This document shows positions 28,836-40,733 of a stretch of DNA of 64,000 bases, in pieces. This DNA comes from Streptomyces sp. NBC_01481. Lineage in GTDB: Bacteria > Actinomycetota > Actinomycetes > Streptomycetales > Streptomycetaceae. The stretch's first letter is position 1. Every line of letters starts with the position of its first letter. The translations under genes and the position numbers were made by a program. Under the pieces are notes generated by a model. That model had not been told where the DNA came from, made no database searches, and worked only from the letters and a program-made list of their open reading frames with translations. The DNA is taken from contig NZ_JAPEPT010000007.1 in the NCBI RefSeq assembly GCF_026339995.1, forward strand, positions 62,001 to 126,000. Reading direction: 5' to 3'.

Positions 28836-29417
28836 TTACCGCAGGCGCGCCATCAGCGCGTGCTCAACCAGGGTGATGAGCGCGCTCTTCGCGTCCGCGC
28901 GGTGCCGCGCGTCCGTCGTGATGATCGGGGTGTCGGGGCCGATCTGCAGCGCCTCCCGCACCTCTTCCGGGTTGTACGGCTGGTGTCCGTCGAAGCCGTT
29001 GAGGGCGATGACGAAGGGCAGTCCGCTGTTCTCGAAGTAGTCGACCGCCGGGAAGCAGTCCGCGAGGCGGCGCGTGTCGACGAGGACGACGGCGCCGATG
29101 GCGCCGCGGACCAGGTCGTCCCACATGAACCAGAAGCGGTCCTGTCCGGGCGTGCCGAACAGGTACAGGATCAGGTCCTGGTCCAGGGTGATACGGCCGA
29201 AGTCCATCGCGACGGTGGTCGTCGTCTTGTCTCCGGTGTGCGTGAGGTCGTCGATGCCCGCGGACGCAGACGTCATCACGGCTTCGGTACGCAGCGGGTT
29301 GATCTCCGAGACGGCGCCGACGAACGTGGTCTTGCCCACGCCGAAGCCGCCCGCCACCACGATCTTCGCGCTGGTGGTTGAGCGGGCTGCACCGCCGCTA
29401 GAGCTTGCGAAGTCCAC
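28836..29417 (-). CDS. cvnD: Conservon small GTPase CvnD
   Basis: A 193-residue Ras-like GTPase of the conservon type. The P-loop is GGFGVGKTT (about 23-31), G3 is FGTPGQDRF, and ALNG occupies the position of the G4 motif. In conservons CvnD acts with the roadblock protein CvnB and kinase-like CvnA as a membrane-linked G-protein-like switch. The ATG overlaps the cvnC end by 20 nt. It is almost the same protein as the CvnD at 33997-34578: by eye only three conservative differences (Ile/Val, Asp/Glu, Arg/Lys) in 193 residues, far closer than the CvnA pair. Confidence 0.93.
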   Translation of the reverse strand: MDFASSSGGAARSTTSAKIVVAGGFGVGKTTFVGAVSEINPLRTEAVMTSASAGIDDLTHTGDKTTTTVAMDFGRITLDQDLILYLFGTPGQDRFWFMWDDLVRGAIGAVVLVDTRRLADCFPAVDYFENSGLPFVIALNGFDGHQPYNPEEVREALQIGPDTPIITTDARHRADAKSALITLVEHALMARLR

Positions 29418-29961
29418 TGAGCACCCTTTCGAGCAGTGTCACGGCTGGCTGGCCGCCGGCGGACTCGTCGCCGCCGGGCTGGTGAATGGCGACAAGTCCG
29501 GCCTCCGCCAGGTCGGCGACGAGGATCCGGGCAACGCCGAGGGGAATGGTGAGAAGCGCCGAGATCTCCGCGACCGACTTGATCTCGATGCACAGCCGGC
29601 AGATCCGCTGGTGCTCGGGCAACTGCCCTTGCAGCCGGGAGGGATCGGCCGTGGTGCTGACCAGTGCCTCGATGGCGAGCTGGTAGCGCGGCCGCGTACG
29701 GCCGCCGGTCATGGCGTAGGGACGCACCAACGGGTTGTGCGCCGCGGGTGCGGCCTCCGGCGCCCGCCGGGGCTGCACCGGCTGAATACGCGGCTGCTGC
29801 GGCTGGTTGTACGACGGGTCGTACGGCGACTGCGGCTGCTGGTAGGGCTGCTGGGCGCCCTGTCTGCTCGGCGTAGAAGGAAAGTTGAAACGGTTCTGAG
29901 AGTGATCACCAGGCGTTTGGTGAGCACCGTCATAGGGGCGTCCGCCCGGGGGTGTTGCCAC
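29398..29961 (-). CDS. cvnC: Conservon protein CvnC (DUF742)
   Basis: A 187-residue DUF742 protein. The conserved C-terminal ~110 residues begin at NPLVRPYAMTGGRTRPRYQL and contain ICRLCIEIKSVAEISALL, then IPLGVARILVADLAEAGLV, a winged-helix-like unit. The N-terminal ~75 residues are Gln/Pro/Tyr-rich and probably unstructured, and are absent from the shorter CvnC at 34559-34963. The last 20 nt overlap the cvnD start, giving translational coupling. Confidence 0.92.
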   Translation of the reverse strand: MATPPGGRPYDGAHQTPGDHSQNRFNFPSTPSRQGAQQPYQQPQSPYDPSYNQPQQPRIQPVQPRRAPEAAPAAHNPLVRPYAMTGGRTRPRYQLAIEALVSTTADPSRLQGQLPEHQRICRLCIEIKSVAEISALLTIPLGVARILVADLAEAGLVAIHQPGGDESAGGQPAVTLLERVLSGLRKL

Positions 29962-30059
29962 GTTTCCTCCTCCGACTGCCGCTCGCCGGTTCCATGTCCC
30001 TGTGGAGCCCGCGCCACCGCACCCTATGGTGCGGTGGCGTGAAACGCACTGTCTGTCTG

Positions 30060-30482
30060 TTAGTTGAGAAGACTTCCCTGGAGCTCCGCACGGAGGTCCG
30101 GCGTCAGCACGCTGCCCGCACGGTCCACCAGCAGAGCCATCTCGTAACCCACCAGACCGATGTCGGCCTCGGGGTGTGCGAGTACGGCCAGCGAGGAACC
30201 GTCGGAGATGGACATGAGGAAGAGGAAGCCTCGTTCCATCTCCACCACCGTCTGGTTGACCGCACCGCCTTCGAAGATCCTGGACGCCCCCGCGGTGAGC
30301 GAGGTCAGACCGGAGGCAACTGCCGCCAGCTGATCGGCTCGGTCCCGCGGGAAACCCTCGGACATCGCCAGCAGGAGTCCGTCGGCGGAGACCACCACTG
30401 TGTGGGACACCCCAGGGGTGTTGTCCACGAAGTTGGTGATCAACCAGTTCAGATTCTGCGCCGCCTGGCTCATCGGGCTCAC
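30060..30482 (-). CDS. cvnB: Conservon protein CvnB (roadblock/LC7)
   Basis: A 140-residue roadblock/LC7-fold protein (VSHTVVVSADGLLLAMSEGF and SGLTSLTAGASRIFEGG are the family strands and helix). Such proteins regulate small GTPases, here CvnD. The likely start is GTG 30482, one base after the cvnA stop, with AGGAG 7 nt upstream. ATG 30473 is an alternative giving 137 residues. By eye it differs from the other CvnB (35092-35514) at about five positions. Confidence 0.92.
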   Translation of the reverse strand: MSPMSQAAQNLNWLITNFVDNTPGVSHTVVVSADGLLLAMSEGFPRDRADQLAAVASGLTSLTAGASRIFEGGAVNQTVVEMERGFLFLMSISDGSSLAVLAHPEADIGLVGYEMALLVDRAGSVLTPDLRAELQGSLLN

Positions 30483-30483
30483 A

Positions 30484-33400
30484 CTAACGCTCCTGGTTGT
30501 AGGTACTGCCCGGGCCGAAGCCCAGTCCGTTCGTGTCCGTTCCCGCGCTGCGTCCCTGCTGGACACCGCGCCGCAGGTTGCTCAACCTGCCGCGCACGGC
30601 GTCCGGGGCGCGGGAGACCTGGGGGCCGCCCTGGGGCGTCTGCTCCGCGGTGCCCTCGATGAGATTGGCCTTGGGCACCCGCCGCGGAAGGCCGGAGGAG
30701 GTGACCCCGCCCGCCTTCGGATCGCGAAGCTTCTCCGCCCGCTGCCAGCGCTCGTCGTTGGTCGAGCGCCAGTCCTCGGAGCCGGTGGCGCTGATGCTGT
30801 TGCCGGGCGCCTCGGTCTGATCGCTCTGCGGAGCCTGTCGGTCCTGCTCCGCCGGCTGCTGCCACTGCTGCTCGGACTGCGGCTGCTGGGTGCTGCCGCG
30901 CCGCGGGAGACCGGCGTTGGTCATCGCGTGGCTGCTGCTCGGAGCGGGCCCGGGTCGGTCGAAGCCTACGCGGTCGGGAGCGTTCGCGGGAGCGCCGGGG
31001 GCAGATTCCGCTTCCGCCCGGTACTCCGGCTCGTACGCACCCTGGTACGGACCTTGATCCTGCCACTCCGCCTGGTGGGACGGGGTGTCGTACTGACCGT
31101 CGTACTGAGCGTCGGACCCCTGCGAAGCCTGGTAATTGGCTTCCGCATATGCGCCCGCGGGCTGGTCCTGCTGCTCCTGGTACTCCTGGTGCTCGGGGTA
31201 GCCACCGGGCGTCTGGTAGCCGTCGTACGCCTGCTGGTCCTGGGCGTAACCCTGCTCCTGGAACTCCTGGCCGTACTCGGAGCCGTACTGCTGCTGCTCC
31301 TGCGGGTAGTCCGCCTCGTCGCGGAAGAGGGGGCGCTCACCGCCCTGAGCCTGCGCCTCCAGCGCCGCACGGCGCTCCTCGCGCATCAGCGAGCGGCCCA
31401 CCGGGTCGAGCTGCGGAGAGCCCTCGGACTGCTCCTCGTACCGCGAGTCGTCGAAGCCGAGCTCCGCCGCCGTGCGCATCGGCGCACTCTGGAGCGGGGG
31501 GTGCTCGTAGGACTGCTGCTCCGGAATGATCTGGGAGACCGTGAAGTCGTCCTCGGGGAGCGCCTCGCCACCGCCACCGTGGGTGATGGCGTCGGGGAGC
31601 ATGACCAGCGAGGTGGTGCCCGCCTGCTCGCCGGAGGGGCGCAGCTGGACGCGGACGCCGTGCCGGTCGGCGAGGCGGCCGACCACGAACAGGCCCATGC
31701 GCTGCGAGACGGCGGCGTCCACGGTCGGCGGGTTGGCCAGCTTGTGGTTGATGTCGGCAAAGTCCTCGGCAGTCAGGCCGATGCCCTTGTCGTGGATCTC
31801 GATCATGACTCGACCGTCGGGGAGACGGGTTGCCGTCACCCGAACCTTGGTCTGCGGCGAGGAGAACGTCGTGGCGTTCTCCAGAAGCTCGGCCAGCAGG
31901 TGCACGAGGTCGGTCACGGCCTGGCCGTGGATGTCCGTCTCCGGGACACCGGTGAGCTCGATGCGCTCGTACGACTCCACCTCGGAGGAGGCGGCACGCA
32001 GCACGTCGACGAGCGGCACCGGCTGGTTCCAGCGGCGGCCGGGCTCCTCGCCCGCGAGGACGAGGAGGTTCTCGCCGTTGCGGCGCATACGGGTCGCCAG
32101 GTGGTCCAGCCGGAAGAGGTTCTCCAGCTGGTCCGGGTCGGCCTCGTTGTTCTCCAGGTCGGTGATCAGGGTCAGCTGGCCCTCGATCAGCGACTGGTTG
32201 CGGCGCGAGAGGTTGGTGAAGATCGCGTTGACGTTGCCACGGAGCATGGCCTGCTCGGCGGCGAGCCGCACGGCCTCGCGGTGGACCTGGTCGAAGGCGC
32301 GGGCGACTTCGCCGATCTCGTCCTGGGTGTCGATCGGGATCGGCTGCACCCGGGTGTCGACGCGGCCCGGCTCCGTACGTGAGAGCTGGTCGACCAGCAT
32401 CGGCAGGCGCTGCTCGGCGATGCCGAAGGCGGCGGTGCGCAGCTGGCGCATCGAGCGGCTCATCTGGCGGGCCATGAGACCGGCCAGGATGAAGGCGGTG
32501 AGCAGGGCGATCACGACGATGGCGCCGGTGGTGATGGCGTCGCGCTTGGCGTCGTCGGAGATCTCGGCGGCCTCGGTCACGGACTTGGTGAGGAGGTCGT
32601 TCTCGATCTCGGTGTAGCCGTCGAACTTGGCGGTGGCCGCACCCATCCACACCTCGGGCGTGGTGCCGCCCTGCTTCAGCTCCTTGGGGCTGAGCCCCTG
32701 GCCGATCGCGGCGGACATGCCCGCCAGGACCGAGCCCTTGTCGTCCTTCGGCGGGTTGAGGCCGGCGGCCTTGAGCTTCTTGCCGCCCTCGACGGCCTTG
32801 GCCGTCATGATCTGCTCGAGCTTGTCGGCGTCGTCCTGCGTACCGCCGGAGACGTACTCGGCGAGCGCGATCTGCTCGAGGTAGTTGTACGAGTTGAACG
32901 CGATGGTCTGCTTCGCGCGGATCGTGTCGTCCTGGCTGGGCCGGATCAGCAGGTGCAGACCGATGGAGCGCTGGAGCGACGCGGCGGCCTTGGCCAGCTG
33001 GACCGCGTAGACCGTACGGCCGTAGCTGGTGATGTTGCCGGTGCCCAGGCCTAGCTCGTTGGAGAACTCCATCAGCGAGTGCTGGACCTTGACGTAGCTC
33101 TCTTCGGTGCCGACCGCGGACTTCTTCTCGACGGCCTCGGTGTAGGCGAACTTGCGGATGTCGGCGAGGCCGGGCTCCTCGGCCCGGAAGAGGCTCAGAC
33201 GGCGCTCCAGGCCCTGCTTCTCGGGCAGAACCTTGACGGCCTCGTCGAACTTACTCTTCGCGTTGTCCGTGTTCGCGTACGCCTTGGTGACTTCCGGATC
33301 CTGGCGGGCACCGGCGAGCAGCTTGGGCGCCGTGAGGTCACGCTCGTTGAGCAGCGCCTGGCCGTACTCCGAGGCGGCGCGCACGATCAGCGCCGTCTTC

Positions 33401-33648
33401 TCGGCGTCCTGTGCCTCCTGCCAGGTGTCGATGGACGACTTGACCTGGAAGCCGCCCATCACCAGCCCGACGAGCACGGGTATGAGCAGGATCGCGTTCA
33501 GACGGGTGGGCACCCGCCAGTTGCGCGGGGACAGCCGGCTGGAGCTTCCGGTGGCCGGGGACGGACCGGGCGCATCCGCAGGCGACGCCGCTGTGCGCGG
33601 CGGCGGGGTGAAGTTACCCCGCGCCTGCTGCTCTGCGGAGCTCGTCAT
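30484..33648 (-). CDS. cvnA: Conservon sensor-kinase-like protein CvnA (nitrate-sensor, HAMP, HATPase)
   Basis: A 1054-residue membrane sensor. It has a short cytoplasmic N-terminus, TM1 (LNAILLIPVLVGLVMGGFQV, about 50-68), and an extracytoplasmic NIT-type helical domain (about 70-385). TM2 (AIVVIALLTAFILAGLMARQ, about 395) leads into HAMP, a kinase dimer region with RLDHLATRMRRNGENLLVLA, and an HATPase core (LLAELLENATTFSSPQTKV, then DKGIGL). A long Gln/Gly/Pro/Tyr-rich tail of roughly 380 residues follows. No response regulator is adjacent. In conservons the output is thought to pass to CvnB-D instead. ATG 33648 follows GTGAGG; GTG 33660 is possible. The cvnB start follows the stop by one base. 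Confidence 0.92.
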   Translation of the reverse strand: MTSSAEQQARGNFTPPPRTAASPADAPGPSPATGSSSRLSPRNWRVPTRLNAILLIPVLVGLVMGGFQVKSSIDTWQEAQDAEKTALIVRAASEYGQALLNERDLTAPKLLAGARQDPEVTKAYANTDNAKSKFDEAVKVLPEKQGLERRLSLFRAEEPGLADIRKFAYTEAVEKKSAVGTEESYVKVQHSLMEFSNELGLGTGNITSYGRTVYAVQLAKAAASLQRSIGLHLLIRPSQDDTIRAKQTIAFNSYNYLEQIALAEYVSGGTQDDADKLEQIMTAKAVEGGKKLKAAGLNPPKDDKGSVLAGMSAAIGQGLSPKELKQGGTTPEVWMGAATAKFDGYTEIENDLLTKSVTEAAEISDDAKRDAITTGAIVVIALLTAFILAGLMARQMSRSMRQLRTAAFGIAEQRLPMLVDQLSRTEPGRVDTRVQPIPIDTQDEIGEVARAFDQVHREAVRLAAEQAMLRGNVNAIFTNLSRRNQSLIEGQLTLITDLENNEADPDQLENLFRLDHLATRMRRNGENLLVLAGEEPGRRWNQPVPLVDVLRAASSEVESYERIELTGVPETDIHGQAVTDLVHLLAELLENATTFSSPQTKVRVTATRLPDGRVMIEIHDKGIGLTAEDFADINHKLANPPTVDAAVSQRMGLFVVGRLADRHGVRVQLRPSGEQAGTTSLVMLPDAITHGGGGEALPEDDFTVSQIIPEQQSYEHPPLQSAPMRTAAELGFDDSRYEEQSEGSPQLDPVGRSLMREERRAALEAQAQGGERPLFRDEADYPQEQQQYGSEYGQEFQEQGYAQDQQAYDGYQTPGGYPEHQEYQEQQDQPAGAYAEANYQASQGSDAQYDGQYDTPSHQAEWQDQGPYQGAYEPEYRAEAESAPGAPANAPDRVGFDRPGPAPSSSHAMTNAGLPRRGSTQQPQSEQQWQQPAEQDRQAPQSDQTEAPGNSISATGSEDWRSTNDERWQRAEKLRDPKAGGVTSSGLPRRVPKANLIEGTAEQTPQGGPQVSRAPDAVRGRLSNLRRGVQQGRSAGTDTNGLGFGPGSTYNQER

Positions 33649-33996
33649 GCTTCGCCTCACTCGACCAACAACCTCTCGGCGTCGGCACCTACGCTGTGCC
33701 GTGTTTCGTTCAGAGCTCTACTACTCGGGAGTTCGTCGAATTCCAGCACGCGGAGGGGCCCCGTTCCAAACAGTTGGAATTGGCCATTCCGTGTGTGCAG
33801 ACCCGAGATATTTCGGGCATATAGAGCAAGTGGCGTCAAATTGCGGGTAAAAAGTGAGCGCAGGGACACCGGCCGGATGCACCGGGTGGCCGAGCCATCT
33901 TAATTCTCTGTCGAAACGTTATGAACACGAGGGCGGACCGTGTCAAAGGACACAGTCCGCCCACGCATAACTACGACAACTGCCGTATGTCGGTGT
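33649..33996. other. Gap between the two conservons: promoter and terminator region
   Basis: This 348-nt gap holds the terminator of the upstream conservon (33932-33963) and an AT-richer stretch (33700-33920) that presumably carries the promoter for the second cvnA. GGAATTGGCCATTCC (33776-33790) is a near-palindrome of unknown meaning. No gene is visible. Confidence 0.55.
33932..33963 (-). terminator. Terminator of the first conservon
   Basis: GGGCGGAC plus GTGTC pairs with GACAC plus GTCCGCCC around an AAAG loop, with one C/A mismatch. It lies 34 nt beyond the cvnD stop on the minus strand. Confidence 0.75.
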
Positions 33997-34578
33997 CTAC
34001 TTGAGGCGGGCCATCAGGGCGTGCTCCACCAGCGTGATCAGCGCGGACTTGGCATCGGCACGATGACGGGCGTCCGTCGTGATGATCGGGGTGTCCGGGC
34101 CGATCTGCAGCGCCTCCCGCACTTCCTCCGGATTGTACGGCTGATGTCCCTCGAAGCCGTTGAGGGCGACGACGAAGGGCAGTCCGCTGTTCTCGAAGTA
34201 GTCGACCGCCGGGAAGCAGTCCGCGAGACGGCGCGTGTCGACGAGGACGACGGCGCCGATGGCGCCGCGGACCAGGTCGTCCCACATGAACCAGAAGCGG
34301 TCCTGTCCGGGAGTGCCGAACAGGTACAGGATCAGGTCCTGATCCAGGGTGATACGGCCGAAGTCCATGGCCACCGTCGTGGTGGTCTTGTCCCCGGTGT
34401 GCGTGAGGTCGTCGATGCCCGCGGACGCAGACGTCATCACGGCTTCGGTACGCAGCGGGTTGATCTCCGAGACGGCGCCGACGAACGTGGTCTTGCCCAC
34501 GCCGAAGCCGCCCGCCACCACGATCTTCGCGCTGGTTGTCGATCGGGCAGCGCCGCCGCTAGAGCTTGCGAAGTCCAC
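33997..34578 (-). CDS. cvnD: Conservon small GTPase CvnD (second copy)
   Basis: A 193-residue GTPase with the same motifs as the 28836-29417 protein (GGFGVGKTT, FGTPGQDRF) and nearly identical at both protein and DNA level. It starts 20 nt inside the end of cvnC. Such identity next to strongly diverged CvnA partners suggests gene conversion between copies or very strong selection. It is probably cvnD of the cvn1-type operon by position beside gltX. Confidence 0.93.
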   Translation of the reverse strand: MDFASSSGGAARSTTSAKIVVAGGFGVGKTTFVGAVSEINPLRTEAVMTSASAGIDDLTHTGDKTTTTVAMDFGRITLDQDLILYLFGTPGQDRFWFMWDDLVRGAIGAVVLVDTRRLADCFPAVDYFENSGLPFVVALNGFEGHQPYNPEEVREALQIGPDTPIITTDARHRADAKSALITLVEHALMARLK

Positions 34579-34963
34579 TGAGCACCCTTTCGAGCAGTGT
34601 CACATCCGGCGTGCCGCCGGCCTCTCCGTTGCCCGGCTGATGGATGGCCACCATGCCCGCCTCCGCCAGGTCGGCGACGAGGATACGGGCAACCCCGAGC
34701 GGCATCGACAGCAGCGCCGAGACCTCGGCCACCGACTTGACCTCACGGCACAGGTGGCAGATCCGCTGGTGCTCCGGCAGCAGCCCGGCCAGGTGCGCCG
34801 GGTCGGCCGTGGTGCTGACCAGTGCCTCTATCGCGAGCTGGTAGCGCGGCCGGGTCCGGCCGCCGGTCATGGCGTACGGACGGACCAGCGGCTGATCGCC
34901 TTCTCCGTACGACGCGTCGACTGAGGCGCCGTACGGATCGTGAGAGGCGGGTGGCGGGGTCAT
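34559..34963 (-). CDS. cvnC: Conservon protein CvnC (DUF742), short form
   Basis: A 134-residue DUF742 protein with PLVRPYAMTGGRTRPRYQLA at about residue 26, followed by ICHLCREVKSVAEVSALL and PLGVARILVADLAEAGMVAI. It has only a ~25-residue N-terminal extension, unlike its 187-residue paralogue. The C-terminal coding end overlaps cvnD by 20 nt, exactly as in the other conservon. Confidence 0.92.
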   Translation of the reverse strand: MTPPPASHDPYGASVDASYGEGDQPLVRPYAMTGGRTRPRYQLAIEALVSTTADPAHLAGLLPEHQRICHLCREVKSVAEVSALLSMPLGVARILVADLAEAGMVAIHQPGNGEAGGTPDVTLLERVLSGLRKL

Positions 34964-35091: not shown

Positions 35092-35514
35092 TCAGTGCAG
35101 CAGGCTCCCCTGGAGCTCGGCGCGCAGGTCCGGAGTGAGGACGCTGCCCGCCCGGTCGACCAGGAGGGCCATCTCGTAGCCCACGAGGCCGATGTCGCAC
35201 TCGGGGTGTGCGAGCACGGCCAGCGAGGAACCGTCGGAGACGGACATGAGGAACAGGAAACCGCGCTCCATCTCGACCACGGTCTGGCTGACCGGGCCGC
35301 CTTCGAAGATCCGGGAGGCGCCCGCGGTCAGCGAGGTCAGCCCGGAGGCCACGGCCGCCAGCTGATCGGCGCGGTCGCGCGGGAAACCTTCTGACATTGC
35401 CAGCAGAAGACCGTCGGCGGAGACCACCACTGTGTGGGACACCCCAGGGGTGTTGTCCACGAAATTGGTGATCAACCAGTTCAGATTCTGCGCCGCCTGG
35501 CTCATCGGGCTCAA
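35092..35514 (-). CDS. cvnB: Conservon protein CvnB (roadblock/LC7), second copy
   Basis: A 140-residue roadblock protein. The frame begins with TTG 35514, immediately after the cvnA stop and 6 nt after AGGAG, the same geometry as the GTG start of its paralogue. ATG 35505 is the alternative. A TTG start here would keep the first residues LSPMSQ/VSPMSQ aligned between copies. It presumably acts on the downstream CvnD GTPase. Confidence 0.9.
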   Translation of the reverse strand: MSPMSQAAQNLNWLITNFVDNTPGVSHTVVVSADGLLLAMSEGFPRDRADQLAAVASGLTSLTAGASRIFEGGPVSQTVVEMERGFLFLMSVSDGSSLAVLAHPECDIGLVGYEMALLVDRAGSVLTPDLRAELQGSLLH

Positions 35515-38500
35515 CTAGTGCTCCTGCTGGTGAGTGGGGCCGAGGTTGAAGCTGCCGGTCGTCGAATTCTGCTGACGGCCCTGCTGAATGCCACGACGGA
35601 GATTGGTCAGCCGGCCGCGTACATCATCGGGTGCACGCGAAACCTGCGGTCCGGCCTGGTGGTTCTGCTCCTGGGCGGTTCCCGGCACAAGGTTGGCGCG
35701 CGGGACCCGACGGGGCAGACCAGAGGTGGTGACGCCGCCCGCCGCGGGCTTCCTGACCCGCTCGGCCTGGCGTACCAACTCGTCATTGGGCGAGGAGCGC
35801 CATGCGGCACCACTCGCGTTGGGCGCGTTGCCCGGGGTCGCCGGGCTCTGCGCGGGGGCGCGCTGCGGCATCGGCGGAACGGGACGCTCCGCCGGCTGCT
35901 GCGGGACAGCTGCCGACGGACCCTGCGGCTGCTGCTGCGCGGACTGACCGCTCTGCGGACCGTGGAACCAGTTCGTCTCCAGCGTGTCGTACAGCGGAGT
36001 ACGGCCGTCGCCGGGACCGGCCGGCGGCAGCGCCTCGGGCTGCGGCTGCGGAGGCAGCGCATTCGCGGGGCGCGGGGCGCGGAAGCCGTCCTGGCCACCG
36101 CGCGGACGCGGAGCCTGGGCGGGAGCGGGCGGGGCGTTGAAGTCCGGACGCGCGAACTGCGCGGTGGACGCCGGGTCCTGCGAACCGGCGCCCGAGCCGT
36201 TCACGTCCGGGCGGGCGTACTGACCCGTGGACGAGGAGTCCGGAGCGCCGAACACGTCGGGCCGTACGAACTGCCCGGTGGCACCGGCACCACCGCGCGG
36301 CGGGCCCGCGTTGTAGTCGGGCCGCGCGAACTCCGACGTCGAGCCCGCACCGCGCCCGGAGTCGCTGTCCTCGTGCCCGCGCGGAGAGTCCGCGGCATGG
36401 CGCCGAGGGGCGCCCTGCTGCTCGTTGCCCCAGCTGGTGGCCTGGGGGCGCTGCGGCTCCTCGCGGCGGGGGCTGCCGGGCAGTTCGGCGCGCGGACCGC
36501 CGGACGCCGGCAGCTGCCGGCCGCGGTCGCCCGCGCCCGGCGCACTCTGCGGGAAGCCGTTCTGCCGCTCGTTGCGGGCCGGGGCGTTCTGCGCGCCACG
36601 TCCCGCACCGGAGCCGAAGGCCCCGGCGAGACCGCGGCCCTGCCCCTGGGAGGCCTGTTGGCCCTGGCCCGGAGCACCGTCACGGGCCGGCAGCGCGGCA
36701 CGCGCACCCGAGCCCGCACCGACCTGGCCGCGCGGCGCACCGGTACCGAGCCGACCGCCCGCGGGAGCCCCTGCGGGACCCGCGCCGGGGCCGCCGCCGA
36801 GACCGGGACGGCCGCCGCCCGTACCGCCGGGACGGCCGCCGATACCCGCCGGACCACCCGGCCCCGGGGGAACGGCGCCCTGGCCGCCCGCACCGGGCAT
36901 GCCCGTCGGAGGCTTCTTGCCGCCGTTGGCGACATCGACGGGGAGCATGACCAGCGCGGTCGTACCACCGGAGTCGGAGGGGCGCAGCTGGATGCGGATG
37001 CCGTGTCGCAGGGACAGCCGGCCGACCACGAACAGACCCATGCGGCGCGAGACCGAGACGTCCACGGTGGGCGGCGACGCCAGCCGCTCGTTGATCGCGG
37101 CGAGGTCCTCGGGGGAGAGGCCGATGCCGGTGTCGTGGATCTCGACCAGCACACGGCCGTCGGGCAGTGCGTGACCGGTGACGCGGACCTTGGTCTGCGG
37201 CGAGGAGAAGGAGGTCGCGTTCTCGAGCAGCTCGGCGAGGAGGTGCACGAGGTCGTTGACGACGCGTCCGGCGACCTCGGTCCCGGGGACCGAGGCCAGT
37301 TCGATGCGCTCGTACTGCTCCACCTCGGAGGCGGCGGCACGGAGCACGTCGACCAGCGGGACCGGCCGGGTCCACCGGCGGCCCGGCTCCTCGCCCGCGA
37401 GGACGAGGAGGTTTTCGCCGTTCCGGCGCATACGGGTCGCGAGGTGGTCCAGCTTGAAGAGGGAGGACAGCTGGTCCGGGTCGGCCTCGCGGGACTCCAG
37501 CTCGGAGATGAGCGAGAGCTGACGCTGGATAAGACCCTGGCTGCGGCGCGAGAGGTTGGTGAACATCGCGTTGACGTTGCCCCGCAGAAGGGCCTGCTCG
37601 GCGGCGAGGCGGACGGCCTCGCGGTGCACGTCGTCGAAGGCCGCGGCCACCTGGCCGATCTCGTCCCGGGAGTGCACACCGACGGACTCGACGGAGGTGT
37701 CGACGTCCTGCGGGTCCGACTCGGACAGCTGCTTGACCAGCTCGGGCAGACGGTCCTGGGCGACCCTGGTCGCGGTGTCCTGCAGCCGGCGCAGCGAGCG
37801 GATCATGGAGCGGGCCACGACGAAGGCGCCCACGAGGGAGACACCGAGGACGATGAGGATCAGTGCACCGTTGATGATCGCCTCGCGCTGCGAGGCCTCA
37901 CGCAGCTCACGGGCCTTGGTCTCCATCTGGCCGAGCAGCGTGGCCTCGATGGTCTTCATGGCGTTGATGCGGACCGTGTAGTCGTCGGTCCAGTCCAGGT
38001 GCGAGCGAATGGGCTTCTGGGAAGCCAGGCCGTTCTTGGTGTCCAGCACGCGCTTGGCGTAGAGCTCGGCCGCCTCGATGGTCGGGTTGCCGTCCTCCAT
38101 CGGTTCCGTCAGCTCGTCGGCGTTGCCGCCGGAGGACTCGTAGACCGCCTTGAAGGCCTTGAGCTGGGTCTCGCCTTGCTCGCGGGCGGCCTGGCCGTAC
38201 TGCCGGTCGGACTCGGTCAGGCCGGGGACCACGCCCTTGTCGCCGATCGGGAGCGCTGCGGCGATGACGGCGCGCTGGATGGAGGCGTACTCCTTGGCGG
38301 ACGAGAAGGCCGCCAGGGCGCGGGTCCGCTTGATCATCTCCGGGTTGTTCGTCGCCTGCGCCATGTCCTGGGACAGGCTCAGCAGGGCGTCGATCAGCCG
38401 GCTGTACTTGTCGATGGTGAGGGAGGTCGGCTGCTCCGCCTTGTACGCGTTGGCCCGGATGCCGTTGAGTTCGTGGACCTGGACGGCGATCTGGTTCGCG

Positions 38501-39078
38501 TTGGCCCGGATGCTCTCCAGGGCCTCGTCCTCATCCGTGTTGGGGATGTCGCGGGTGGCATCGAGGAAGGCGTTCCTGGCCCGGTCGGTCGCGGTGCGGG
38601 GACCTGTGACCTTGAAGTCGGTGACGGCGGCAGGGTCGTTGCGAATCGGGCCCGCCGACAGGTCGCGCTCCGTCTGGAGCTGCGTCGCCAGTTCGGTCGC
38701 CTGCTTGGTCATCTTGGTGAGCAGCTGCATGTGATCCAGCTGCTTCATGTCTTCCATGGACTCGTTGATACGGAGTCCGCCCAGCGTGGTCGCTGCGACG
38801 ACCGGCAGGGTCAGCAGGGAGACAAGGCGCGTGCTGATGCGCCAGTTGCGCAGGGCTATTCGCGGCCCGGTGTCCGTCGGTCCCTTCGGCTTCAGCGGGG
38901 CCGTGGGCCTCTCGCCGCCGGGTGCCGCAGTGCCGGGGCGCGCGGCACGTTCGCCGCTGTCGCCGGGCGCTGCCGGTCCCTGGTTTTGGGTGTGCTGGGG
39001 CGAGGAGCCGCGGTCGGTCCCGCCGCGCGGCTCCTGTTCCGCCGCAGCGCTGCCATCCCTCTTGAAACGTCCCTGCAC
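35515..39078 (-). CDS. cvnA: Conservon sensor-kinase-like protein CvnA, second copy (long tail)
   Basis: A 1187-residue sensor with the same order as its paralogue: a charged N-terminal region (about 75 residues), TM1 (LVSLLTLPVVAATTLGGL), an extracytoplasmic NIT-type helical domain, and TM2 (EAIINGALILIVLGVSLVGAFVVA). HAMP, a dimer region (LDHLATRMRRNGENLLVLAG) and the HATPase (LLAELLENATSFSSPQTKV, then HDTGIGL) follow. The tail of about 480 residues is rich in Gly, Pro, Gln and Ala and carries repeated F/Y-A-R-P-D units (TSEFARPDYN, TGQFVRPDVF, TGQYARPDVN, TAQFARPDFN). The start is taken as GTG 39078 (MQGRFKRDG). The longer frame to 39294 lacks a good ribosome site. It probably corresponds to cvnA1. 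Confidence 0.92.
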   Translation of the reverse strand: MQGRFKRDGSAAAEQEPRGGTDRGSSPQHTQNQGPAAPGDSGERAARPGTAAPGGERPTAPLKPKGPTDTGPRIALRNWRISTRLVSLLTLPVVAATTLGGLRINESMEDMKQLDHMQLLTKMTKQATELATQLQTERDLSAGPIRNDPAAVTDFKVTGPRTATDRARNAFLDATRDIPNTDEDEALESIRANANQIAVQVHELNGIRANAYKAEQPTSLTIDKYSRLIDALLSLSQDMAQATNNPEMIKRTRALAAFSSAKEYASIQRAVIAAALPIGDKGVVPGLTESDRQYGQAAREQGETQLKAFKAVYESSGGNADELTEPMEDGNPTIEAAELYAKRVLDTKNGLASQKPIRSHLDWTDDYTVRINAMKTIEATLLGQMETKARELREASQREAIINGALILIVLGVSLVGAFVVARSMIRSLRRLQDTATRVAQDRLPELVKQLSESDPQDVDTSVESVGVHSRDEIGQVAAAFDDVHREAVRLAAEQALLRGNVNAMFTNLSRRSQGLIQRQLSLISELESREADPDQLSSLFKLDHLATRMRRNGENLLVLAGEEPGRRWTRPVPLVDVLRAAASEVEQYERIELASVPGTEVAGRVVNDLVHLLAELLENATSFSSPQTKVRVTGHALPDGRVLVEIHDTGIGLSPEDLAAINERLASPPTVDVSVSRRMGLFVVGRLSLRHGIRIQLRPSDSGGTTALVMLPVDVANGGKKPPTGMPGAGGQGAVPPGPGGPAGIGGRPGGTGGGRPGLGGGPGAGPAGAPAGGRLGTGAPRGQVGAGSGARAALPARDGAPGQGQQASQGQGRGLAGAFGSGAGRGAQNAPARNERQNGFPQSAPGAGDRGRQLPASGGPRAELPGSPRREEPQRPQATSWGNEQQGAPRRHAADSPRGHEDSDSGRGAGSTSEFARPDYNAGPPRGGAGATGQFVRPDVFGAPDSSSTGQYARPDVNGSGAGSQDPASTAQFARPDFNAPPAPAQAPRPRGGQDGFRAPRPANALPPQPQPEALPPAGPGDGRTPLYDTLETNWFHGPQSGQSAQQQPQGPSAAVPQQPAERPVPPMPQRAPAQSPATPGNAPNASGAAWRSSPNDELVRQAERVRKPAAGGVTTSGLPRRVPRANLVPGTAQEQNHQAGPQVSRAPDDVRGRLTNLRRGIQQGRQQNSTTGSFNLGPTHQQEH

Positions 39079-39660
39079 TAGCGTCGCAACCTCTGGACCA
39101 GGCGTCCCTCCGCTCTCACGGCGGGACGGTGTCGGCGTCTCGGGGCGAAAATATGGTGCCCCATGGTGGTCGTTGAGTGACCGGCGCTGCTCCCCCTTTC
39201 CCGCCGCCACTCGGCGCTGCGTTGCGCCCCATGCGCGCCGGCCTGAAACCGCGGCGGTGCGTGGAATTCCAGCACAGTGCAGGATCTCCAACAAGAGCCG
39301 TGTACCGGCCTGTGACCTGGATGACGCGGTGTGAGCGTCGCGTCACAAGACGTAGAAATGGTTCACGGATGAAACGGACTTTTCCGTACGAGTCGCTTAG
39401 GGGTGGGGGGTGTCCCAGTAGCGATGATCAGGAGCGGAATGGTCGCTTCAGTGGCGCAATGTCCGTTTCCCTCAACTGACCCGTCATCCGGAATGTCCGA
39501 ATTGACTGTCAACTCGTGAGGAAACTCACACGTAGATCGCTGAGTCTTCCGGGCTTTCCCGGGGAATTGGATGTTTAGCCTGACGCTTTACAGGGATGGG
39601 AAATCCGTCAACCCGGCGTTAACCGCAGCGCCCGCACACCGACAAGGTCTGAAACAACCG
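39079..39660. other. Divergent control region between cvnA and a small ORF
   Basis: These 582 nt show no convincing gene. They contain TTGACTGTCAA (39502-39512, palindrome) and GTGAG-GAAA-CTCAC (39516-39529, a 5-bp hairpin with a GAAA loop). Several AT-richer segments could carry promoters for both directions, but no -35/-10 pair is clear. Confidence 0.5.
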
Positions 39661-39834
39661 ATGAAGACGACGATGATGTTCCGCAACATAGCCAACCCCC
39701 GGCGTACCACGCTCGCGCACCTCACGGACGCGGACGAACTGCAGATGCCGGAACAGCCGGAGCACGCGATCGATCTTCCCATGCAGACGGCCAACCCCCG
39801 CCGCACGGTCCTGATGGACGCCCCCGCCCAGTAA
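39661..39834 (+). CDS. 57-residue peptide with duplicated NPRRT motif
   Basis: A small frame from ATG 39661 (alternatives ATG 39673 and 39676) to TAA 39832. The product begins MKTTMMFRNIANPRRTTLAH and ends PMQTANPRRTVLMDAPAQ. The unit ANPRRT-(T/V)-L occurs twice, separated by an acidic, Pro/Glu-rich stretch (LTDADELQMPEQPEHAIDL). Third codon positions are mostly G or C, as expected for a Streptomyces gene. AAGG lies too far upstream to be an ideal ribosome site. There is no signal peptide and no cysteine. I do not recognise the family. The layout of a charged leader with repeated cores could fit a precursor peptide or a short protein-binding adaptor; both are guesses. Confidence 0.6.
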   Translation: MKTTMMFRNIANPRRTTLAHLTDADELQMPEQPEHAIDLPMQTANPRRTVLMDAPAQ

Positions 39835-39880
39835 TACGCGAGGCGGTGCCCCCACCAATACGCGAGGCGGTCCCCGCACC
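39833..39880. repeat. Two tandem 24-nt repeats after the small ORF
   Basis: AATACGCGAGGCGGT plus GCCCCCACC is followed directly by AATACGCGAGGCGGT plus CCCCGCACC, with two mismatches between units. The first overlaps the stop codon of the 57-residue ORF, and the block lies before the FAA hydrolase gene. Confidence 0.8.
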
Positions 39881-39941
39881 CGCGTTAGCCTGGAGCGTCA
39901 GACTCCAGCCAGCGTCATCAAAAGAGGGGCACCCGCATCCC

Positions 39942-40733
39942 GTGCGCATCGCCAGGTTCTCCATCGACGGCAATGTGGCCTTCGGCGCGGTCGAGGGCGA
40001 AGGCCCCGACGGCCTCGTCCTCGACATCATCAAGGGCATCCCGTTCGCGGACTTCGAGCTCTCCGGCACCAAGGTCCCGCTGGCTCCCGGCTCCAAGGAC
40101 AGGGTCCGGCTGCTGCCGCCCGTGCTTCCCAGCAAGGTCGTGGCCTTCGGCCGCAACTACGCGGAGCACGCCGCGGAGCTCGGCAACGAGGTCCCCGACG
40201 CGCCGTTCGCCTTCTTCAAGCCGTCCACCTCGGTGATCGGCCCCGGCGACCCCATCGCGTACCCCTCCTTCTCGCAGGAACTGCACCACGAGGCCGAACT
40301 GGCCGTGGTCATCGGCCGGATGTGCCGCGAGGTCCCGCTCGAGCGGGTCAAGGACGTCATCCTCGGCTACACCTGCGCCAACGACGTCACCGCCCGCGAC
40401 GTCCAGAAGCGCGAGAAGCAATGGGCCCGGGCCAAGGGCTTCGACAGCTCCTGCCCGCTCGGCCCCTGGGTGGAGACCGACCTCGACCCGAGCGACCTTG
40501 CCATCCAGTGCACGGTCAACGGCGAACAGCGCCAGCTCGGCCGTACGAGCCAGATGATCCACTCCATCGAGGAGCTGATCGTCAATGCCTCCGAGGCGAT
40601 GACACTGCTCCCCGGCGACGTCGTCCTCACCGGCACACCGGCCGGGGTCGGCCCGCTCAACGTCGGCGACGAGGTCGCCGTCACCATTCAAGGCATCGGC
40701 ACTCTCACCAACAAGGTGATCAAGCGTGGCTAA
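39942..40733 (+). CDS. Fumarylacetoacetate hydrolase-family enzyme
   Basis: A 263-residue FAH-superfamily protein (FAA hydrolase, HpcE/HHDD isomerase or acylpyruvase-like). The catalytic core runs VVAFGRNYAEHAAELG, then FKPSTSVIGPGDPI, then the metal-binding pattern HHEAELAVVIG, then ANDVTARDVQ. The closing PGDVVLTGTPAGVGPLNVGDEV is typical. GTG 39942 fits homologue length and has GAGGGG upstream. The gene overlaps gltX by 8 nt, so the two are cotranscribed. The substrate is a 2,4-dioxo acid or related compound and cannot be fixed from sequence. Confidence 0.88.
   Translation: MRIARFSIDGNVAFGAVEGEGPDGLVLDIIKGIPFADFELSGTKVPLAPGSKDRVRLLPPVLPSKVVAFGRNYAEHAAELGNEVPDAPFAFFKPSTSVIGPGDPIAYPSFSQELHHEAELAVVIGRMCREVPLERVKDVILGYTCANDVTARDVQKREKQWARAKGFDSSCPLGPWVETDLDPSDLAIQCTVNGEQRQLGRTSQMIHSIEELIVNASEAMTLLPGDVVLTGTPAGVGPLNVGDEVAVTIQGIGTLTNKVIKRG

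Follow-up and report, generated by a model that had tools for sequence, protein, structure and literature searches.

The locus and its genes

The DNA discussed here—the window, a stretch of 64,000 nucleotides from Streptomyces sp. NBC_01481—holds a small gene that lies between a conservon, cvn1, on the opposite strand and a gene of the FAH-hydrolase family on its own strand. The genes of this neighbourhood are listed below, together with a repeat that adjoins the small gene.

33997..34578, minus strand: cvnD1, small GTPase (Pfam ATP_bind_1)
34559..34963, minus strand: cvnC1 (DUF742), by domain match
35092..35514, minus strand: cvnB1 (Roadblock/LC7), by domain match
35515..39066, minus strand: cvnA1 (NIT, HAMP, HATPase_c), the divergent neighbour; start at 39066 chosen, frame open to 39294
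39661..39834, plus strand: small protein gene, 57 codons and TAA; ATG here, GTG in most aligned relatives
39833..39880, plus strand: 24-nt tandem repeat, two copies; strain-private and outside the conserved system
39942..40733, plus strand: FAH-hydrolase family gene, the downstream neighbour, with its own promoter-like TTAGCCT

Beyond the FAH gene lies a frame that we take to be gltX. On the other side, at 28836-33660, cvnD1 is followed by another frame that by eye looks CvnA-like and by a GTPase gene, and two conservons seemingly stand in tandem. Ahead of the FAH gene, positions 39885-39908 read TTAGCCTGGAGCGTCAGACTCCAG, where a TTAGCCT element resembling a -10 region overlaps a CTGGAG/CTCCAG inverted repeat; sequences like TTAGCCTGGAGCGTCAGACTCCAG are visible in several relatives, and an element of the TTAGCCT type also precedes the small gene.

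Translation of 39661-39834 gives MKTTMMFRNIANPRRTTLAHLTDADELQMPEQPEHAIDLPMQTANPRRTVLMDAPAQ, 57 residues, and the GC content of the frame by codon position is 0.65/0.44/0.89. Its start codon is GTG in 87 and ATG in 57 of 144 aligned rows. An earlier note on this DNA, made from the letters alone, had described a 57-residue frame opposite cvnA with two ANPRRT(T/V)L motifs, an acidic linker between them and two 24-nt tandem repeats beginning in the stop codon. All of this is borne out: the motif copies occupy residues 11-18 and 44-51, with a 17-nt direct repeat as their trace in the DNA; the linker is acidic; cvnA is divergent; and the tandem repeats run from 39833 to 39880, their onset lying in the TAA at 39832-39834. 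The repeats were discarded as a functional part, being private to the source strain—a downstream tandem repeat of any kind was found in 7 rows from 193 loci, two of them the source genome and the other five (four genomes) carrying unrelated sequences.

Distribution of the small protein

The frame picked out in the earlier note proved to be conserved, the small gene being nearly universal in Streptomycetaceae. Two samples, with seven genomes in common, together cover 211 Streptomyces genomes, and the protein turned up in 209 of these. In a protein search, 35 of 37 Streptomyces genomes gave a match with E no higher than 3.5e-13; in the larger sample, a search profile built from 30 relatives matched all 181 Streptomyces genomes and the one genome of another Streptomycetaceae genus, with a single match per genome in nearly all of them. 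Other genera of the family were positive in 34 of 35 genomes, 32 by profile and two by eye; the latter, G508 and G523, escaped the profile, yet at the corresponding position each has a frame in which both motifs can be recognised. In G520, of another genus, neither the profile nor inspection of the locus showed a small gene. One genome counted among the profile matches, G500 (76% complete, locus L186), was left out of the 196 loci described below; its match has an E of 8.4e-6, and a frameshift, whether genuine or introduced in assembly, seemingly disrupts its frame at motif 1.

The profile found the protein in none of 15 genomes from other families of the order. A sample of the class (296 genomes) gave 28 Streptomyces matches and six weak ones outside the family, with E values from 6e-4 to 7e-3, and in a scan of named genomes the best 80 loci were all Streptomyces by title except for one labelled Kitasatospora aureofaciens. 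A plasmid or phage origin was considered and rejected: the one weak match, in Sinorhizobium (E 0.3), lies inside an aminotransferase, and there was no phage match up to E 1.

Two Streptomyces genomes deserve separate mention. In G001 (79% complete) there was no match to the small protein and none to FAH at E up to 1e-60; since the FAH match is absent as well, this assembly probably does not include the locus. The assembly of G010 has no occurrence of the 17-base ANPRRT pattern anywhere. Elsewhere, other 17-base ANPRRT sites are scattered, and among the matches listed there is no second locus common to genomes that would indicate a paralogue.

For the comparisons that follow, 196 loci were gathered by a text pattern requiring two ANP-type motifs, and the invariance of A and N in sets drawn from them leans on that pattern; the pattern lost none of the first 175 loci fetched (L001-L175). 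The 196 loci include repeats of the same genome, and 167 of them are distinct.

Motifs, linker and selection

The small protein can be divided into three conserved or variable segments, as follows:

39688..39714, plus strand: motif 1, IANPRRTTL, residues 10-18; dN/dS 0.026; A, N, P and the second R invariant in 67 of 67
39715..39786, plus strand: variable acidic linker, residues 19-42; 21-38 residues long among the 67; dN/dS 0.74 at residues 22-38
39787..39813, plus strand: motif 2, TANPRRTVL, residues 43-51; T, A, N, the second R and T invariant in 67 of 67

The 67 diverse sequences were chosen by a similarity cut, with L160 and L204, which come from one genome, omitted. Among them copy 1 reads [IT]-A-N-P-R-R-[TS]-x-L and copy 2 reads T-A-N-P-R-R-T-x-L, with at most three exceptions per position. 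The residue after the two arginines is threonine throughout motif 2 (67 of 67), and in motif 1 it is threonine in 65 sequences and serine in two. The linker varies in both sequence and length and is net negative in 61 of the 67; none of the 67 has a cysteine. L160 and L204 also have KTANPRRTP, resembling a third copy of the motif, ahead of the usual start and in frame with it.

Selection was measured as dN/dS by the Nei-Gojobori method on 1500 random pairs from 145 unique proteins, taken from the 169 loci, out of 196, in which a K-T-T pattern allowed the start to be recognised; the 27 loci omitted are mostly from other genera. The ratio is 0.026 at residues 10-18, 0.085 at residues 19-21, 0.74 in the linker (residues 22-38) and 0.18 at residues 39-51; it is 0.64 in the tail, 0.92 at residues 2-9 and 0.38 over the whole gene. 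Throughout the 145 proteins motif 1 keeps A, N, P, both R, T(17) and L without change and has T or S at position 16, although several codons of these residues vary. Being conserved, and constrained at the protein level in both motifs, the frame lies far beyond chance, and we regard it as virtually certain that 39661-39834 encodes a real conserved protein.

Two features of the start region stand apart. Synonymous divergence (pS) over codons 2-9 (39664-39687) is 0.13, compared with 0.33-0.43 elsewhere in the gene; this region looks as if it were constrained at the nucleotide level too, and protein-level constraint there is not clear. The isoleucine at residue 10 (39688-39690) is encoded by the rare codon AUA in 77 of 132 relatives that carry isoleucine there; the codon is seen in other genera as well (as grouped by locus number). 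AUA makes up none of the 113 other isoleucine codons of the small-protein family and 8 of 387 in 23 genes of the window.

An AlphaFold2 model made with the 67-row alignment has a pLDDT of 62.9 and a pTM of 0.15, and contains no helix of four residues and no strand of three. The small protein has no match in Pfam (E up to 1), NCBIfam, PHROGs or PDB. It is predicted to be intrinsically disordered and is probably cytoplasmic. Together these results have the pattern of two putative short linear motifs for binding, carried on a flexible tether.

The shared control region

Between the small gene and cvnA1 lies a long upstream region in which four elements can be placed:

39322..39334, unstranded: BldD box TGACGCGGTGTGA (TNAC-N5-GTNA), by consensus match
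39410..39416, unstranded: partly conserved GTGTCCC block, from the upstream consensus
39516..39529, unstranded: palindrome GTGAGGAAACTCAC, probable operator, from the conservation of GTGA-N6-TCAC
39574..39581, plus strand: TTTAGCCT, probable -10 region of the small gene, inferred (TWAGCCT in upstream regions)

The form GTGA-N6-TCAC occurs in 161 of the 167 distinct upstream regions, compared with 0.6% of shuffled ones, and its 14-base core, GTGAG(C/G)AAACTCAC, in 137 of the 167. TWAGCCT is found in 121 of the 167, and in every one of these 121 it stands 58 or 59 nt from the palindrome. The 15-base form GTGAGNAAACTCACA has exactly one copy in seven of eight genomes tested and none in the eighth. 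As it stands at 39516-39530, the palindrome GTGAGnAAACTCACA, also written GTGAGCAAACTCAC, is apparently a dedicated operator. In G010 the small gene is lost and the palindrome kept, so the palindrome may also serve cvnA1.

The GTGTCCC block holds GACAC on its minus strand, presumably a WhiA-type motif. Rfam gave no element above threshold in 38900-40100, and one miRNA match below it (E 0.095). The palindrome itself was rejected as a BldD box: GTGA-N6-TCAC has the opposite orientation to the consensus TNAC-N5-GTNA in the available text of PMC4151990. A box of the published form is present in the control region of the small gene at 39322-39334, as expected of the BldD regulon, and such boxes lie within 600 nt upstream at 163 of the 196 loci, compared with 12 of 196 after shuffling (one mononucleotide shuffle per locus).

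Developmental regulators have been placed at this region in published work. In the portions of the literature available, cvnA1 is a target of BldC and BldD (PMC6428758, PMC5859096), WhiAB binds upstream of cvn1 (PMC6428758), and a figure legend names a WhiB ChIP trace at cvnA1 (PMC4850268); the same portions cite a cvn1 mutant as impaired in aerial mycelium formation (PMC6428758, PMC5859096). BldD binding is there assigned to cvnA1, and those portions do not name the small gene (PMC6428758, PMC5859096).

Linkage to cvn1

A cvnA gene is divergent upstream of the small gene at all 196 loci (167 distinct). The FAH gene is present at 190 of the 196, and three of the other six end at contig edges; in the remaining three, all from Streptomyces (G007, G218 and G074; loci L250, L251 and L252), two opposite-strand genes lie between the small gene and FAH, and these resemble genes for a small secreted protein and a lipoprotein. 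In three genomes from other families of the order (G037, G038, G045) FAH is present, with no cvnA in the approximately 5 kb fetched upstream and no small gene within 900 nt upstream of FAH.

Two genomes keep cvnA-D without the small gene. Measured against the Cvn proteins of the window, best-segment identities for A, B, C and D are 69%, 94%, 86% and 96% in G010 (Streptomyces) and 40%, 94%, 78% and 86% in G520 (another genus); the small protein is thus not needed for the retention of Cvn1 itself. Overall, linkage favours Cvn1 over FAH-gltX, the cvnA side being unbroken and the FAH side split in three genomes, but the arrangement was inherited as a single synteny and does not amount to many independent events.

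Protein distances point the same way. At the 68 of 94 loci that have near-full-length neighbours, the partial rank correlation between the small protein and CvnA, given FAH and GltX, is 0.36; it is 0.08 between the small protein and FAH, given CvnA and GltX, and -0.16 between the small protein and GltX, given CvnA and FAH. The correlation with CvnA could reflect a better clock, because CvnA evolves faster than FAH and GltX.

Proposed mode of action

We suggest that the main functional content of the small protein is its two near-identical linear motifs, [IT]-A-N-P-R-R-T-x-L, and the flexible acidic tether that joins them. Each motif would fit a small groove on a partner protein; the pair, sharing one tether, could then hold both subunits of a dimer or connect two copies, and such a bivalent grip would give higher affinity or hold the partner in one state. 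We lean slightly towards the small protein being a bivalent linear-motif ligand of this kind. Its partner, with less confidence, would be the Cvn1 G-protein system—either the CvnA1 histidine-kinase dimer or the CvnB1 roadblock dimer; Cvn1 is the leading candidate, and we name it tentatively. Also with less confidence, production of the small protein may be timed to a particular stage of development, given that its promoter sits in the cvn1 control region that is reported to be bound by BldD, BldC and WhiAB. Taken whole, as a disordered bivalent motif protein that acts on a dimeric partner and is expressed from a control region shared with cvn1, the explanation is in our judgement evenly poised between right and wrong.

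Three functions had been guessed at in the earlier note, and of these an adaptor for the conservon is the best placed. The divergent cvnA at every locus, the predicted disorder and the two binding-type motifs agree with it; the retention of cvn1 A-D without the small gene in G010 and G520 does not. A peptide signal is without support, the sequence having no visible secretion signal or hydrophobic stretch, and the third guess, a modified-peptide precursor, is weak, for reasons given below.

Alternative explanations

Disorder and invariance would look alike for a kinase substrate or for the ligand of an unrelated partner, and the alternatives are here taken in order of how well they survive. The most serious retains a disordered bivalent motif protein and gives it a partner with no relation to Cvn1, such as a developmental or housekeeping dimer whose gene lies elsewhere, so that the small gene would stand beside cvnA1 merely through stable inheritance. 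The persistence of Cvn1 without the small protein in G010 and G520 agrees with this, as does the single occurrence of the upstream site in seven of eight genomes; in addition, the block from cvn1 to gltX is largely syntenic anyway, which makes adjacency weak evidence. On the other hand, the cvnA side is unbroken across the 196 loci while the FAH side is interrupted, and the closest rate correlation is with CvnA. We consider an unrelated partner possible though doubtful.

Less probable, and in our view unlikely, is a phospho-switch, in which a Ser/Thr kinase would phosphorylate the threonine after the two arginines, and a partner (an FHA protein, say) would recognise the phosphorylated form. 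This threonine is indeed invariant in motif 2 and nearly so in motif 1, and basic residues directly precede it; however, the threonine is no more invariant than A, N and the second R, which a kinase consensus would not obviously need. The orthologue of the small gene in S. coelicolor is, we assume, SCO5545, and under that locus number no report of phosphorylation was found in the open literature.

The precursor of a ribosomally made, post-translationally modified peptide, with the motifs as repeated cores or recognition sequences, would account for a short protein in which a highly conserved motif is duplicated around a variable spacer. We think it quite improbable: the 67 sequences have no cysteine, and the 12 neighbours scanned with Pfam, of which 11 have a match, include no modification enzyme (five conservon proteins, FAH, MEDS, IclR, aconitase, HU, a carboxyltransferase and one protein with no match). 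The distribution is genus-wide, not patchy, with one profile match per genome nearly throughout, and there is no NCBIfam match.

A role for the frame as leader or attenuator of FAH-gltX, which lie downstream, is very improbable. The small gene does lie just upstream of those genes on the same strand, its codons 2-9 are low in synonymous divergence and a rare AUA codon is favoured at residue 10, but the motifs are constrained at the protein level with their synonymous codons free, FAH has its own promoter-like sequence, two genes separate the small gene from FAH in three genomes, and Rfam found no element above threshold across the region. Finally, a chance open frame, which a short frame in a GC-rich genome might suggest, is ruled out by conservation in 209 of 211 Streptomyces genomes and by dN/dS, and we give it next to no weight.

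Comparison with known systems

A bivalent ligand of Cvn1 would invite comparison with the accessory proteins already known from conservons. In the available portion of the published account (PMC13343842), these are CvnF, a GAF protein, and CvnE, a cytochrome P450, both encoded after cvnA-D and associated with a CvnA that lacks a sensory domain. Like them, the small protein is encoded with a conservon, and, should the leading guess at its partner prove right, the CvnA dimer would be its target. Unlike them, it has neither a GAF nor a cytochrome P450 domain (no Pfam match, E up to 1), its gene is divergent to cvnA at 196 of 196 loci whereas theirs follow cvnA-D, and the window's CvnA1 carries the extracytoplasmic NIT sensor domain (E 9.9e-42) that their partners lack. 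The small protein therefore falls outside the CvnE and CvnF definitions, which lowers any claim of membership and not the claim that it might act alike. We raise, still more tentatively than the choice of Cvn1 as partner, the prospect of a third, new kind of G-protein accessory—a disordered two-handed ligand, divergently encoded, that clamps the CvnA1 or CvnB1 dimer, with BldD, BldC and WhiAB setting both the receptor system and its modulator.

Among more general classes, the closest in kind are the short disordered bacterial regulators that act via linear motifs. The small protein resembles these in being small and (by prediction) disordered, with its function apparently confined to short invariant motifs; it differs in that neither [IT]ANPRRTxL nor its duplicated arrangement has a counterpart in Pfam, NCBIfam, PHROGs or PDB. 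RiPP precursors are similar in length and in having a repeated short conserved segment, and the differences are those already given—no cysteine, a genus-wide distribution and no modification enzyme among the 12 scanned neighbours. Tat signal peptides share a near-invariant RR followed by L two residues on, but the small protein has no hydrophobic stretch after RR and carries its motif twice. The idea of a Tat decoy was dropped for the same lack of a hydrophobic stretch; the position that is hydrophobic in Tat signals is T, V, I, N, Q or K in the small protein.

Significance

In the open literature (subscription papers and supplementary files being outside the scope of our search) we found no description of the small gene, and the searchable literature yielded no binding, expression or phenotype data for its protein. 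A protein that is present in 209 of 211 Streptomyces genomes, at the same place in 196 loci and with near-unchanging motifs, must be useful. The binding of BldC, BldD and WhiAB that has been assigned to cvnA1 may also, or instead, concern the small gene. The [IT]ANPRRTxL motif is a ready bait for identifying the partner, and if the small protein acts on Cvn1 it would offer a handle on how conservons are regulated.
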